DNA of 23,542 nucleotides. It comes from Candidatus Lithacetigena glycinireducens. GTDB lineage: Bacteria; Coprothermobacterota; HKB111. The position numbers and the translations under genes were made by a program. The notes below the pieces were generated by a model that did not search any database, was not told the DNA's origin, and was given only the letters and a program-made list of their open reading frames with translations. Numbering within the stretch: position 1 is the stretch's first letter; every line of letters begins with the position of its first letter. The stretch covers positions 1 through 23,542 of the forward strand of contig QLUP01000005.1 of assembly GCA_018725485.1 (NCBI GenBank). The letters are read 5' to 3'. This document shows, piece by piece, positions 14,706 to 20,787 of this stretch.

Positions 14706-17441
14706 ATGAGCTACGATAAAACATTGAATTTACCTAAAACAAATTTTTCCATGAAAGCTAACCTTACTCAGAAGGAGCCTAGGTGGCTTGAATTCTGGGA
14801 AAAAGCCGATGTTTATAATAAGATGTTAGCCAGTAATAATATCACTAAAAGATTTATTCTGCACGATGGACCACCTTATGCTAACGGAGATATTCATCTC
14901 GGTCATGCTCTTAACAAGATACTGAAAGACACTATTGTACGCTATAAATCTATGAACGGATACTATTCCCCTTATGTTCCTGGGTGGGATTGTCATGGAC
15001 TTCCTACCGAGCAGGAAGTAGCCAAAAGACTGAAAATCGATAGGAAAACAGTTTCAATTACTGAGTGGAGACAAAAATGCCGTGAAACAGCCTGGTTATA
15101 TATTAACCGGCAGAGGGAGCAATTTAAAAGGTTAGGTATCTTTGGAGATTGGGAAAACCCTTATAAAACCCTGGATAATGCTTATGAAGCTACCCAGATT
15201 AATATTTTTGCGGAAATGTACTTTGAAGGATACCTTTATCGCGATTTTAAAACTGTTCTCTGGTGCCCCCATTGCGAAACCTCTTTAGCTGATGCTGAAA
15301 TTGAATACGAAGATAAATACTCACATTCAACTTATGTAAAATTTCCCCTGGTAGATGAACCTGGAACTTTTTTCCTCATCTGGACTACAACACCCTGGAC
15401 CTTACCTGGAAACAGGGCTGTGGCAGTTCATCCTGAGGGGAAATATATAGTTGTTGAGTTTGGTAACGAAAAGATAATTCTTCTTGCAGACAGGCTTTCT
15501 GATATTCTGAACCAAACTGGACTCAAAAACGGTTTAATAAGTAAAACTGTATCAGGAAAAGAGTTAGCGGGGTTAAGTTATTACCACCCCTTGTTTGGAA
15601 CCTCCCAAAAAGCTCTGGCAGAGGATTGGGTATCCCTCGAGGAAGGATCGGGAATTGTACATGTTGCACCTGGACACGGAGAAATAGACCATTTAACTGG
15701 AAAAAAGCATGGTTTAGACCTTCAATCCCCGGTTGACGAGAGAGGGATATTAACTATGGATGCAGGTCAATTTTCTGGCTTATCTTATAAAGATGCTGAA
15801 AAAGACATATTAGAATATTTAACTAACAAAAATTTGCTTTTTTGGTCAGGTAGGTTACAACATAGTTACCCACACTGTTGGAGATGTCACAAACCTGTCA
15901 TTTACAGAGCAGCTTTGCAATGGTTTGTGGATGTTGATAAATATCGGACCCAGGCTTTAGAGAGTATTGATGAAGTTAAATGGTTACCTGAAGGTACTGT
16001 AAACCGTATTAAGTCAATGGTAGAAAGTCGTCCAGACTGGTGCCTATCCCGTCAAAGAGCCTGGGGAGTCCCTATACCTGTTTTTTATTGCAGAAACTGC
16101 CAGGAAGTAGTTTTAAATAAAGAAATTATCCAGCATCTTACCGCTTTATTTTTACAACACAGTTCAGACATCTGGTTTGAAAATGATGAAAAACAACTTT
16201 TACCACCTGATACCCGGTGTCTTAACTGTCATGGTGATATTTTTGAGAAAGAAAAGGATATTATGGACGTTTGGTTTGACTCTGGCATATCACATTATGC
16301 AGTTCTGGAAAAAAGGAAAGAATTAGGGTGGCCAGCCGACCTTTACCTTGAAGGTTCAGACCAACATAGAGGTTGGTTCCAGACCTCGCTTTTAACCTCA
16401 GTTCCTCTTAAACAAACCGCTCCCTATAAAATAGTATTTACCAGCGGATGGATAGTGGATGAAAAAGGAAGAACTATGCATAAATCACTGGGGAATGTTA
16501 TCAGTCCCTTAGAAGTAATTAATAAACATGGTGCTGATGTTCTCAGGTTAACCCTTACCGGATCCGATTTTAGTAGAGATGTATCGGTTTCTAAGGATAT
16601 CTTAGAACAGTTTTCTAATATCTACCGTAAAATAAGGAATACTTTAAGATTTATGTTAGGAAATCTTCAAGATTATAAGGAAACTGAAGATGTATCCTAT
16701 GCTGATTTAGGTGAGCTAAATCAATGGATTCTACATAGGCTAAACAATCTGGTGAATGATGTTCGCGAAGCAATGGACGAATATAAATTTTATAGGTTTC
16801 ACCGTCTTTTACATGATTTCTGCGAAAAAGATTTGAGCGCTTTTTATTTAGATGTTTTAAAAGATAGGCTATATGTTTTACAACCGACACATCCAAGAAG
16901 GAAATCTGCTCTGACTACTCTTTATCATATTTTAAGCAGTATAACCTCACTGATGTCGCCAATACTACCTTTTACTTCGGAAGAGGTTTTTACTGAACTA
17001 AAAAATATTTCCAACTACCTGCCAATTAGTGTCCATTTAACAAGTTACCCAACCTGGAAAGAGGAGTATTTCAGGCCTGACTTAGAAGAGAAGTACAGTA
17101 AGATATTGTATTTTAGAGAAAAAGTCAATCAGGAATTAGAAATAGCCCGCAGAAATAACCTGATAAGGAGCTCACTGGAAGCAAAAGTGATAATTTATGC
17201 TGATAAAGAAAGTATTTCTTTTCTGAAACAGGTTGGTGATAAAGAACTGGAGGATATTTTTATAGTATCCAAATTAGAATTGCAGGTCAATGATAGTTTG
17301 GTTGAGGATATACAAATTTTGCATTCTGAGGGACTTAAATGTGAACGGTGCTGGAAATGGAGTGATAGTGTGGGGAAATATGAAGAACATCCTGCTATTT
17401 GCGGCAGATGTGTTGGTGAAGTTTCTGGTTTAGAAATATGA
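14706..17441 (+). CDS. ileS: Isoleucyl-tRNA synthetase
   Basis: Charges tRNA-Ile and edits mischarged valine. The 911-residue class Ia enzyme has PPYANGDIHLGH (HIGH motif His64-His67), an editing domain with TTTPWTLPGN (about 228-237), DVWFDSG, EGSDQHRGWFQ, and a KMSKS-equivalent read as MHKSLGN (591-597). The C-terminal zinc-binding module has Cys879, Cys882, Cys899 and Cys902. This is the bacterial type with the zinc finger and the usual length. The serine of KMSKS is His here, a substitution I believe occurs in some bacterial IleRS. The start is ATG. The nearest AGGA lies 16 nt upstream, too far for a standard ribosome binding site. The stop overlaps the surE start (ATGA). Confidence 0.97.
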   Translation: MSYDKTLNLPKTNFSMKANLTQKEPRWLEFWEKADVYNKMLASNNITKRFILHDGPPYANGDIHLGHALNKILKDTIVRYKSMNGYYSPYVPGWDCHGLPTEQEVAKRLKIDRKTVSITEWRQKCRETAWLYINRQREQFKRLGIFGDWENPYKTLDNAYEATQINIFAEMYFEGYLYRDFKTVLWCPHCETSLADAEIEYEDKYSHSTYVKFPLVDEPGTFFLIWTTTPWTLPGNRAVAVHPEGKYIVVEFGNEKIILLADRLSDILNQTGLKNGLISKTVSGKELAGLSYYHPLFGTSQKALAEDWVSLEEGSGIVHVAPGHGEIDHLTGKKHGLDLQSPVDERGILTMDAGQFSGLSYKDAEKDILEYLTNKNLLFWSGRLQHSYPHCWRCHKPVIYRAALQWFVDVDKYRTQALESIDEVKWLPEGTVNRIKSMVESRPDWCLSRQRAWGVPIPVFYCRNCQEVVLNKEIIQHLTALFLQHSSDIWFENDEKQLLPPDTRCLNCHGDIFEKEKDIMDVWFDSGISHYAVLEKRKELGWPADLYLEGSDQHRGWFQTSLLTSVPLKQTAPYKIVFTSGWIVDEKGRTMHKSLGNVISPLEVINKHGADVLRLTLTGSDFSRDVSVSKDILEQFSNIYRKIRNTLRFMLGNLQDYKETEDVSYADLGELNQWILHRLNNLVNDVREAMDEYKFYRFHRLLHDFCEKDLSAFYLDVLKDRLYVLQPTHPRRKSALTTLYHILSSITSLMSPILPFTSEEVFTELKNISNYLPISVHLTSYPTWKEEYFRPDLEEKYSKILYFREKVNQELEIARRNNLIRSSLEAKVIIYADKESISFLKQVGDKELEDIFIVSKLELQVNDSLVEDIQILHSEGLKCERCWKWSDSVGKYEEHPAICGRCVGEVSGLEI

Positions 17442-18202
17442 TATTAATCTCCAACGACGATGGCATTCATTCTGAAGGTATATATAACTTAGTTGATGCT
17501 GTAAAAGATCTGGACGAAATTAAAGTTTTTGCTCCTGATAGCGAGCGAAGTGCTGTTTCTCATGGCTTGACTTTACATAAACCCTTAAGGATGGAAAAAA
17601 CTAATTTCAGAATTAATGACATTGAAGCATATGCAATAAACGGTACACCAGCTGATTGCGTGGTTCTCGGTCTGTATAAACTGAAAGAAAATAAACCTAA
17701 GTTGATTCTTTCGGGTATTAACAGAGGTCCTAATATTGGGGTTGATGTTTTTTATTCAGGAACACTGGCTGCAGCTGTAGAAGGTTATATAGCTGGATTA
17801 CCTGCTGTGGCCTTTTCTCTGGCCAGTTTTAACGACCTTCATTGGGAAACTGCTAAACGTGTTGCTTCATATATCACCCGCCTGGTAATTAAATATGGGT
17901 TACCTCCAAAAGTAGTTCTTAATGTAAATATTCCTAATATACCCTACGAAAAAATTAAAGGATACAAGTGTACAATTTTAGGGAAGTGGGAGTATCGCAA
18001 CCATCTTGAAGAAAAGATAGACCCCAGAAAAGATAGTTATTACTGGCTTTCCGAACACATTGTCCATATTCCAACAGGGGATGATAGTGATGTTAAAGCG
18101 GTAAGAGATGGTTTTGTATCTGTAACTCCACTTAGTTATGTTTTAGATTGTCCTGAATGCTTTTCAACGATTGCTCAGTGGTTTGTGAATCAGGAGGTGT
18201 GA
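17438..18202 (+). CDS. surE: 5'/3'-nucleotidase SurE
   Basis: A metal-dependent nucleoside monophosphate phosphatase, linked to stationary-phase survival in other bacteria. The 254-residue protein begins with ISNDDG, where Asp7 and Asp8 are metal ligands. Ser38 in DSERSAVS and Asn95 in SGINRGPNIG complete the metal site. NGTPADCV and YSGTLAAAVEG are also conserved. The length is normal. The ATG overlaps the ileS stop by four bases and has no Shine-Dalgarno, which suggests coupled translation. The last codons (CAG GAG GTG) double as the Shine-Dalgarno of obg. The TGA stop is in the same frame as obg, three bases before its proposed start. Confidence 0.95.
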   Translation: MILISNDDGIHSEGIYNLVDAVKDLDEIKVFAPDSERSAVSHGLTLHKPLRMEKTNFRINDIEAYAINGTPADCVVLGLYKLKENKPKLILSGINRGPNIGVDVFYSGTLAAAVEGYIAGLPAVAFSLASFNDLHWETAKRVASYITRLVIKYGLPPKVVLNVNIPNIPYEKIKGYKCTILGKWEYRNHLEEKIDPRKDSYYWLSEHIVHIPTGDDSDVKAVRDGFVSVTPLSYVLDCPECFSTIAQWFVNQEV

Positions 18203-18208
18203 TTAATT
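18193..18208 (+). promoter_or_regulatory. Strong Shine-Dalgarno and ATT start codon of obg
   Basis: GGAGGTG (18193-18199) lies in the last codons of surE. The in-frame codon 8 nt after GGAGG is ATT (18206-18208). No in-frame ATG, GTG or TTG exists between the surE stop and residue 107 of Obg, so ATT is the best start. It places methionine exactly where family members begin (M-F-[VL]-D). Confidence 0.75.
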
Positions 18209-19438
18209 TTTCTTGATAGAGTAAACTTAACCATCAAAGGTGGAAGAGGTGGTAAAGGGTCTTTTAGCTTTGAAAAAAGGAAGTATTTTCCCCGGGGAGG
18301 TCCCGATGGAGGGGATGGAGGGGACGGGGGAAATGTAATTCTGAGAGTATCTGAAAAACTTTACGATTTATCTGCTTTTTCCCATAAGACAGTATTCTTA
18401 GCTGAAGATGGATTACCAGGACAAAAAAGACAGAAAGCTGGAAGGTCTGGAAAAGACCTGATTATTGAGGTTCCTGCAGGTACCAGGGTAATAGATGTTC
18501 TCCAGGATCGGCTAATTATCGACATGATTAGCCCTCAACAGGAATATATCATTGCTAAAGGTGGCAGAGGTGGCAGAGGTAATGTTCATTTTAAATCTTC
18601 TACTAATAGGTCTCCGAGATATGCTGAGTGGGGTGAAATAGGAGATGAAAAATCTATAGTTTTAGACTTATCTCTTTTATTGGATGTAGCTATCCTGGGG
18701 GCTCCCAATAGTGGGAAATCTTTACTCTTAAATAAACTTACTAATGCCCAAGCGGAAGTGGATATTTATCCTTATACCACTAAGTCGCTCGTACCGGGAG
18801 TGTTAAAAAACGACCCTCCACTGGTGTTGGGAGAAATACCTTCCTTCAGGGATACTCAGGAAAATTTGAAGTACGCCAAACATTTCCAGAGAGCCAGGGT
18901 TTTTGTCTTAGTGTTAGATGTGTCTTCCGCTGAATCTGCTCAATGGTTATTAGATATTATTAATAGATATTCTTTAAAAAATATACTAATAGTATTTAAT
19001 AAAGTTGATTTAGTTAGCAGTGAGGAATTTATAAAAGAATTTCTTAGTGAACTTATTGAATTAACAGGCCATCAACCACCATATGTAAAGACATCTGCTG
19101 AAAGTGGCGAAGGAATTGTGGAGCTAAAGCAGGCCTTATATAATTTATATGCTATGCCTATCGCTCATGTTTTTGAAGTTTCTAAAGATAATAAATTTCT
19201 GGAGGAATTTCAGTTACCATTAGTAATTAAGTTAGAATCGGGAGATTTTGAGATAAAAAGCCATGAAATTGAAAAATCCCTCTCTTCTATTAATATCGAT
19301 ACCCGTCGAGGGATTCAGCTATTACAGAAAAAAATAAGAGATTCTGGTTTGGAAAAGCTTCTGATTAAAAAGGGTATAAAGCCTTATGACCGGGTTAAAA
19401 TTGGCGATACCTGGTTCACCTACTTAGCTGATGAGTGA
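18206..19438 (+). CDS. obg: GTPase Obg (CgtA), with ATT start and degenerate switch II
   Basis: A large-subunit ribosome assembly and stress-response GTPase. From ATT 18206 the protein is 410 residues. The N-terminal Obg fold (1-157) has the glycine-rich repeats GGPDGGDGGDGG (31-42) and GGRGGRGN. The G domain has G1 GAPNSGKS (165-172), G2 YTT, G4 NKVDL (265-269) and G5 SAES (297-300). The C-terminal OCT domain (about 335-410) contains RGIQLLQKKI and DRVKIGD. The normal G3 DLPGLIEGA is instead GEIPSFRDT (from 209): Asp to Glu, Gly to Ser, and about five switch II residues missing. GTP binding seems possible, but hydrolysis or switching may be altered. The first in-frame ATG (18524) would delete two-thirds of the Obg fold, so it is not the start. 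The 3' end overlaps nadD by 8 nt. Confidence 0.92.
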   Translation: MFLDRVNLTIKGGRGGKGSFSFEKRKYFPRGGPDGGDGGDGGNVILRVSEKLYDLSAFSHKTVFLAEDGLPGQKRQKAGRSGKDLIIEVPAGTRVIDVLQDRLIIDMISPQQEYIIAKGGRGGRGNVHFKSSTNRSPRYAEWGEIGDEKSIVLDLSLLLDVAILGAPNSGKSLLLNKLTNAQAEVDIYPYTTKSLVPGVLKNDPPLVLGEIPSFRDTQENLKYAKHFQRARVFVLVLDVSSAESAQWLLDIINRYSLKNILIVFNKVDLVSSEEFIKEFLSELIELTGHQPPYVKTSAESGEGIVELKQALYNLYAMPIAHVFEVSKDNKFLEEFQLPLVIKLESGDFEIKSHEIEKSLSSINIDTRRGIQLLQKKIRDSGLEKLLIKKGIKPYDRVKIGDTWFTYLADE

Positions 19439-20039
19439 TAAGAAATATGGTTTAATTGGAGGAACCTTTGACCCTGTGCATATCGGTCATTTATTAAATG
19501 CCCAGTATGCCATTGAGTTTCTGAACCTAACGAATTTTTTTTACATTCCGGCTTTTATTCCACCCCATAAACAGGATATTTTTATTACTCCCTACCACCA
19601 CCGGGTAAAGATGCTTGAATTAGCCTGTTTGAATAATGAAAAATTTGCTATTCTCAACCTGGAAAGGGAAAGAGGGGGAGTGTCTTATACAGTTGAAACT
19701 TTAAAGGAGTTAAGGAAACTCTGGGGAGAAAAAGTGGAGATCTATTATCTTTTAGGTACCGACTCATTCCTGGAACTTCCAACCTGGAAAAACCCCCGGG
19801 AAATATCTTCTTTAGCCAGGTTAGTTGTATTAATGAGAAATCAAAACTACTATCCCCTGGATGATTTTAAAAAAGTAAGGGACCTGCTTGTCCCCTCATC
19901 GGTTATGGAAATCCCGGGAAGGGTTATTGATATTAGAGCTTCAGAAATTAGAAAACGAGTAAAGCTTGGTCTGTCAATAAAGTATATGGTGACTAAGGAA
20001 GTTGAAGATTATATATATACAAATAAACTTTATAGTTAA
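19431..20039 (+). CDS. nadD: Nicotinate-nucleotide adenylyltransferase
   Basis: Adenylates nicotinate mononucleotide to deamido-NAD in NAD synthesis. The 202-residue nucleotidyltransferase has GGTFDPVHIGH (10-20) with the HxGH ATP-binding motif, FIPPHK, LLGTDSFLELPTWKNP and, near the C terminus, IDIRASEIRKRV. The last corresponds to the usual SSTxIR motif with Ala in place of one Ser or Thr. The length is normal. The ATG overlaps the obg coding end by 8 nt and has no visible Shine-Dalgarno, which fits translational coupling. The obg-nadD-rsfS order is common in bacteria and supports all three assignments. Confidence 0.95.
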   Translation: MSDKKYGLIGGTFDPVHIGHLLNAQYAIEFLNLTNFFYIPAFIPPHKQDIFITPYHHRVKMLELACLNNEKFAILNLERERGGVSYTVETLKELRKLWGEKVEIYYLLGTDSFLELPTWKNPREISSLARLVVLMRNQNYYPLDDFKKVRDLLVPSSVMEIPGRVIDIRASEIRKRVKLGLSIKYMVTKEVEDYIYTNKLYS

Positions 20040-20040
20040 A

Positions 20041-20056
20041 GGAGGAAAGAAAACTG
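20041..20056 (+). promoter_or_regulatory. Shine-Dalgarno and CTG start codon of rsfS
   Basis: AAAGGAGG ends at 20045, and the in-frame CTG at 20054-20056 follows GGAGG by 8 nt. No in-frame ATG, GTG or TTG occurs before 20222, which lies in the middle of the conserved domain. CTG is therefore the best start and yields a family-typical length. Confidence 0.7.
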
Positions 20057-20410
20057 GAGCAAACGGTAAATGATTTATTTAACAGGGTAGTAACATTATT
20101 ATGTAATTTACAGGTTGAACAACTGGTATCCATTGATGTAAGAAATAACATTGCTCTTTTTGATTACCTTGTAGTTGGGACTATCACTTCTTCAGCCCAC
20201 GCAGGGGGTGTTGTCAAAACTATGTTAGAGGACCGAGATTTAAAGAAGGTAATTATTGGCGTTGAAGGTGTGGATAAAAGCGGATGGATTTTAATTGATT
20301 TTGATCATTTTCTTCTAAACTTGATGGATGACCAGACCAGGGATTATTATCGCCTCGAAGATAAATGGTATAAATCTTCTATGGTAAAATTATGTGATAC
20401 GCCTGAGTGA
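20054..20410 (+). CDS. rsfS: Ribosomal silencing factor RsfS (Iojap family), CTG start
   Basis: Binds ribosomal protein uL14 on the 50S subunit and blocks joining with 30S during starvation or stationary phase. From CTG 20054 the protein is 118 residues, normal for the family (about 105-120). Conserved features are the IDVR strand (about 27-30), FDYLVVGTITSSAHAGGVVK (about 36-55), GVEGVDKSGWILIDFDHF and the C-terminal TRDYYRLEDKW. The usual SxxH is SSAH. The start is inferred from the 8-nt spacing to GGAGG and the absence of ATG, GTG or TTG. It lies 14 nt after nadD. The final three codons and the TGA stop form the 5' strand of the RNase P RNA P1 helix, so the two genes overlap by 11 nt. Confidence 0.9.
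   Translation: MEQTVNDLFNRVVTLLCNLQVEQLVSIDVRNNIALFDYLVVGTITSSAHAGGVVKTMLEDRDLKKVIIGVEGVDKSGWILIDFDHFLLNLMDDQTRDYYRLEDKWYKSSMVKLCDTPE
20382..20390 (+). promoter_or_regulatory. Extended -10 promoter candidate for rnpB inside rsfS
   Basis: TGGTAAAAT (TG at 20382-20383, TAAAAT at 20385-20390) lies 10-18 nt upstream of the P1 helix of RNase P RNA. A start about 7 nt downstream (near 20397) matches the expected RNA 5' end. No good -35 is visible. It resembles the TGGTATAAT upstream of ileS. Confidence 0.55.
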
Positions 20411-20752
20411 ATGTTTGCAACCGCATGCGTTGCTTTTAGCAACTCATGAGGAAAGTCCGGGCTCCATAGGGCAAAAGGCTGGGTAATACCCAGCGAGGGC
20501 GACCTCGGGAGAGTGCCACAGAGACTATACCGCCTGTTTATAACAGGTAAGGGTGCAAAGGTGGGGTAAGAGCCCACCGTGCAGAGGGTGACTGAAGCAG
20601 CAGGGTAAACCCCCTTTGGAGCAAGGCCAAATAGGAAGGCGACGACGGTGCCCCTCGAGCCTTCGGGTAGGCCGCTTGAGATGTTGAGTAATCAATATTC
20701 TTAGATAGATGGTTGCACCAGGACAGAACCCGGCTTATGGTTCACTCAGGCG
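20400..20752 (+). ncRNA. rnpB: RNase P RNA, bacterial type A
   Basis: The catalytic RNA that matures tRNA 5' ends. A perfect 12-bp P1 joins 20400-20411 with 20741-20752. P2 pairs GCAACC (20417-20422) with GGTTGC (20711-20716). P3 is a hairpin of CATG and GTTGC/GCAAC (20424-20448). Universal segments are GAGGAAAGTCCGGGCTCC (from 20448), CACAGAGA, GGTGCAAAGGTGGGGTAAGA, GGTAAACCCC, GAGCAAGGCCAAATAGG, AGATAGATGGTTGC and ACAGAACCCGGCTTA. The order and spacing match the E. coli-like type A rather than the Bacillus type B. A T-rich run (20753-20767) directly follows P1 and may serve as transcription end. The 5' strand overlaps the end of rsfS. Confidence 0.97.
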
Positions 20753-20787
20753 TTTATCTTATTTTTTGACAAAAAGAGGTATCACTT

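Follow-up and report, generated by a model that had tools for sequence, protein, structure and literature searches.

A probable ATT start codon for obg in Candidatus Lithacetigena glycinireducens, one of four conserved near-cognate starts in translation genes

Introduction

The locus raises a simple question: where does translation of obg begin? In the stretch of DNA that we analyzed (hereafter the window; 23,542 nt of contig QLUP01000005.1, assembly GCA_018725485.1), no stop codon interrupts the obg frame after that of surE, yet it contains no ATG, GTG or TTG before codon 107. Near-cognate starts and their control by initiation factor IF3 are already known. Escherichia coli infC, which encodes IF3, starts at AUU and is autoregulated by IF3, and Streptomyces infC starts at ATC. 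To our knowledge few other bacterial near-cognate starts are established, and in our searches of open-licence papers none of the results listed reported such a start for obg, rsfS or rpsP.

Comparison within the genus was between two genomes, Ca. Lithacetigena glycinireducens and its sister species Ca. Psychracetigena formicireducens BS5B28, described from The Cedars and placed in the candidate phylum Ca. Lithacetigenota (PMC9751293). The genus is little known, and its habitat is alkaline springs.

Results

The start region of obg

The features of the region are as follows.

17438-18202, + strand: surE (ORF list; NCBIfam SurE)
18192-18199, + strand: extended Shine-Dalgarno (SD) sequence of obg, AGGAGGTG, read from the sequence and containing GGAGG at 18193-18197
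18199-18201, + strand: GTG out of frame with obg (ATG in the sister species), 1 nt past GGAGG, opening five codons and then TGA; judged unused
18206-18208, + strand: putative start codon of obg, an ATT that the sister species shares, with the 8-nt spacing seen in infC, rsfS and rpsP
18206-19438, + strand: obg, 410 aa (Pfam GTP1_OBG, MMR_HSR1 and DUF1967; match to the Obg structure 1udx; dN/dS 0.144)
18524-18526, + strand: ATG, codon 107 counted from the ATT, the first in-frame ATG, GTG or TTG and the default start for standard gene callers; CTG in the sister species

At its 5' end the obg frame reads TGA (18200)-TTA-ATT (18206)-TTT CTT GAT AGA GTA, which from the ATT gives MFLDRV. The surE stop (TGA, 18200-18202) is in the same frame and lies between the SD and the ATT. 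A preliminary description of this DNA, made from its letters, had reported the open frame without canonical codons and an ATT 8 nt past GGAGG that yields MFLDRV; the ORF list agrees with the former, and the latter was confirmed at 18193-18197 and 18206-18208, where the 8-nt spacer is TGTGATTA. The out-of-frame GTG was absent from that description. Over 8 nt the extended SD matches the complement of the 16S rRNA 3' end, as seen in the sister species, where that end is canonical. A predicted hairpin over the SD has a folding energy of -10.1 kcal/mol in the window and -4.7 kcal/mol in the sister species, with a z-score of only -1.0; on both counts, since it is not clearly kept and the z-score is low, we do not claim that it masks the SD.

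Roughly 4.5% of coding-frame codons are ATG, GTG or TTG, which puts the chance probability of 106 codons without any of them at about 0.008. Taken alone this absence is only suggestive, and the question was therefore decided by homology and selection data.

Homology and selection across the frame

Pfam GTP1_OBG matches residues 4-156 of the predicted protein (E 1.2e-53), so that a start at codon 107 would lose most of the N-terminal domain. The N-terminal, G and OCT-type C-terminal domains all score above their cut-offs (PF01018, PF01926 and PF09269, DUF1967), the match to structure 1udx covers nearly the full length, and the score against TIGR02729 (276.2) falls just below the cut-off of 280.25. 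The G3 motif and switch II are not intact: in both species EIPS/EIPA replaces DIPG, leaving no DxPG, and five residues of switch II are gone after G3 (window 18820-18900, residues ~205-230). The gene is nonetheless under purifying selection. Judged from its sequence, the protein is Obg by descent, which does not imply Obg-like GTP hydrolysis.

Between the two species obg has a dS of 0.61 with the dN/dS listed above, and neighboring genes are in a similar range. Divided along the gene, dN/dS was 0.11 for codons 1-61, 0.07 for codons 64-106 and 0.16 for the remainder, indicating strong purifying selection (0.07-0.11) on the very codons that a start at ATG107 would leave untranslated. This selection, together with the CTG that stands in place of ATG107 in the sister species, rules out the downstream start and shows that the short obg of standard callers is wrong, in agreement with the earlier expectation that they would truncate the gene. 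The full obg frame is very probably real and translated.

The sister obg 5' end, which lies near a contig edge, reads GAGGAGGTATGATTAATTTTTCTTGATAGAG, with the ATT, the 8-nt spacing and the T5 run all as in the window. A 35-nt run from 18200 is identical between the species, but such runs cover 8% of aligned bases, so the identity gives mild support only, and one codon shared by two species would be weak evidence alone. Other families of the phylum begin obg with ATG-x-F-[IVA]-D, and their ATG aligns with the TTA one codon upstream of the ATT. The proposal to examine the 5' ends of relatives thus had a divided outcome: ATT, SD and spacing hold in the sister species, whereas farther out in the phylum obg has the ATG at the preceding codon. 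The ATT is therefore genus-specific, a genus-level trait that is neither strain-specific nor ancient. The upstream neighbor of obg also differs, being surE here (window 17438-18206) and, in other families of the phylum, apparently a gene encoding a protein with an L27-like (ribosomal protein L27) end.

Companion starts in rsfS, rpsP and infC

We scanned 875 kb (~70% of the genome) and 862 coding frames for genes that have a near-cognate codon behind a strong SD but no plausible canonical start. Only four strong cases emerged from that ~70%: obg (ATT), rsfS (CTG), rpsP (CTG) and infC (ATC). One of the companions is in the window.

20038-20045, + strand: SD of rsfS, AAAGGAGG (sequence; SD comparison)
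20054-20410, + strand: rsfS, with its predicted CTG start at 20054-20056 (Pfam RsfS, E 5.4e-16; TIGR00090; CTG identical in the sister species)

The rsfS gene lies 1.8 kb downstream of obg and has the arrangement GGAGG-8-CTG; no ATG, GTG or TTG occurs over 56 codons, so gene callers would miss or shorten it. Its CTG lies inside a 49-nt run identical in the sister species, dN/dS over the first 56 codons is 0.08, and the aligned start in phylum relatives is TTG in five of six and ATG in the sixth. RNase P RNA (RF00010; window 20403-20753) directly follows rsfS and overlaps its last codons. For rpsP, which encodes ribosomal protein S16 (L135:7773, C172, and L192), the start region reads GGAGGTGATTACT-CTG here and GGAGGTGATTACC-CTG in the sister species, and the corresponding codon of relatives is GTG or TTG. 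Both species have GGAGG-8-ATC at infC, where two relatives appear to use ATA. In rpsP and infC in-frame canonical codons are found a few codons upstream, the nearest overlapping the SD; homology sets the starts at CTG and ATC, respectively.

Several other frames were set aside: a SIS-domain gene (L144; ATC, GGAGG-8) whose neighbors on the contig look broken, a frame with ATA (L097) that looks antisense to a real gene, frames at L106 and L126 that have no canonical start but weak SDs, and a radical-SAM gene resembling amrS (L066:8092, C2), in which CTG is the first codon after the stop and no canonical start occurs for 46 codons, also with a weak SD. A DUF362/ferredoxin gene (L126:3432, C163) runs for ~70 codons without a canonical start and has an ATG one base out of frame before a six-A run, where slippage or a sequence error is possible.

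All four starts have GGAGG exactly 8 nt upstream in both genomes. Here the SD match of each is 8 nt or longer, as it is in 7.8% of 689 genes of this genome. Since a strong SD was a requirement of the scan, part of this enrichment follows from the design; among genes with a match of at least 5, only ~17% are calculated to reach 8. Canonical starts in the genome hardly exceed background 2-3 nt from GGAGG, reach their maximum at 6 nt and are common at 5-9 nt, a range that includes the 8-nt spacing of the obg ATT. Near-cognate codons are not in general excess behind SDs in this genome, so the four starts are exceptions and not signs of a general relaxation.

Alternative readings of the obg start

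Ribosomes might instead initiate at the out-of-frame GTG (18199; ATG in the sister species) and reach the obg frame by a +1 shift on the U-run, AAU UUU U CUU, which would yield MINFLDRV; slippage of RNA polymerase on the T5 run would be another route. Both species have a start codon at the R-TG triplet, the T5 run would let tRNA-Phe re-pair after a +1 slip, and a programmed +1 shift exists in prfB here. We nonetheless regard this route as unlikely: the triplet is 1 nt past GGAGG, closer than the 2-3 nt at which canonical starts are already at background; the base that differs, A or G, is the third of a surE Val codon and synonymous there, so conservation of the triplet as a start codon can be chance; the SD abuts the shift site in prfB and is too distant at obg; and rsfS and rpsP, with the same geometry, require no shift. 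Initiation at the TTA (18203) one codon upstream, in the column of the ATG of phylum relatives and at a 5-nt spacing that is also common in the genome, is quite unlikely as well. Two points favor ATT: it has a single mismatch to the initiator anticodon, against two for TTA, and infC, rsfS and rpsP share the 8-nt spacing. Obg proteins of both lengths exist.

An error that conceals an ATG would be conceivable in a fragmented draft of 204 contigs, in which some other start-less frames look like errors or broken genes, but the same bases recur in a second, diverged species (obg dS ~0.6), which largely refutes the concern about the assembly and leaves this explanation very improbable. Hardly credible at all is a single SurE-Obg protein made through UGA by readthrough or selenocysteine insertion. 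The two genes share a frame with one TGA between them, the glycine reductase GrdB is present, and selenocysteine use has been reported in the phylum (PMC9751293); against this, TGA terminates 29% of long coding frames and prfB retains its UGA-dependent frameshift, so UGA is a stop, while folding of the region gave no stable structure after the UGA, SurE ends where its family ends, and a strong SD before the ATT would be needless. The earlier claim of initiation at ATT is thus well supported by the codon, spacing and SD of the sister species, by selection on codons 1-106 and by the geometry shared with infC, rsfS and rpsP, and obg in this genus very probably starts at this rare codon.

Discussion

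We consider it likely that obg in this genus is translated from AUU by means of a long SD, as one of four conserved near-cognate starts in translation genes. The part of this explanation that comes from sequence comprises the open frame, conservation, purifying selection, SD strength and spacing, and the companion starts. Mechanistically, a long, well-spaced SD helix would hold the 30S subunit while initiator tRNA pairs with AUU despite one mismatch; the same kind of helix would allow AUU, AUC and CUG to be used at low efficiency, and initiation on obg would be low but real. Translational coupling to surE, with its stop between the SD and the AUU, probably helps.

The infC system resembles what we describe in having a near-cognate start in a translation gene, and infC itself has ATC here with the same spacing from GGAGG; it differs in that the gene at issue is obg and that IF3 control is a proposal. 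In Staphylococcus aureus, conserved AUU (cvfC1) and AUA (ccpN) starts with extended SDs have been mapped and found to lower output (PMC13009471). These too are conserved near-cognate starts directed by an extended SD, but they rest on ribosome profiling and reporters and are not in ribosome genes. Streptomyces sigR is likewise a non-canonical start outside infC, although the codon is GTC, the gene encodes a sigma factor and repression by IF3 was shown there by experiment, where for obg we infer it (PMC5472188). An AUU start was proposed for lepA in Borrelia burgdorferi and Bacillus licheniformis (PMC1780047), again a ribosome-linked GTPase predicted from sequence to require AUU for its full length; the gene is a different one, and the available part of that report describes no companion set. 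The AUU start of E. coli pcnB, which as cited in PMC13009471 and PMC1780047 limits translation, was shown experimentally, in a gene for poly(A) polymerase.

The preliminary description had suggested that an IF3-sensitive start would tie Obg synthesis to the initiation machinery, which is plausible in view of the precedents of infC, pcnB, sigR and the S. aureus AUU and AUA starts. IF3 repression of near-cognate initiation has been described for infC and shown for the sigR start (PMC5472188), and the IF3 gene is present in both genomes; IF3 would then repress the AUU start of obg, and Obg would rise whenever IF3 activity runs low. Obg binds the 50S subunit as an anti-association factor, an activity probably centered in its N-terminal domain, IF3 is called a well-known anti-association factor in the same paper (PMC4028186), and RsfS binds uL14 and blocks subunit association (PMC7125091). 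Each thus opposes subunit joining, so three of the four genes encode factors that keep the subunits apart. The four shared near-cognate starts hint at shared control of synthesis. We offer as a tentative and rather doubtful extension that IF3, Obg, RsfS and S16 form a start-codon regulon with long SDs, in which IF3 proofreading would set all four together and couple ribosome assembly and subunit dissociation to the IF3 level; such co-control is suggested by codon choice.

The set of four ribosome-related genes, which rests on two genomes, is more interesting than obg alone. With a conserved set of near-cognate starts in ribosome genes, IF3 autocontrol would widen into a small network. In this candidate phylum, and perhaps in others, callers limited to ATG, GTG and TTG would shorten obg and rsfS or lose them.
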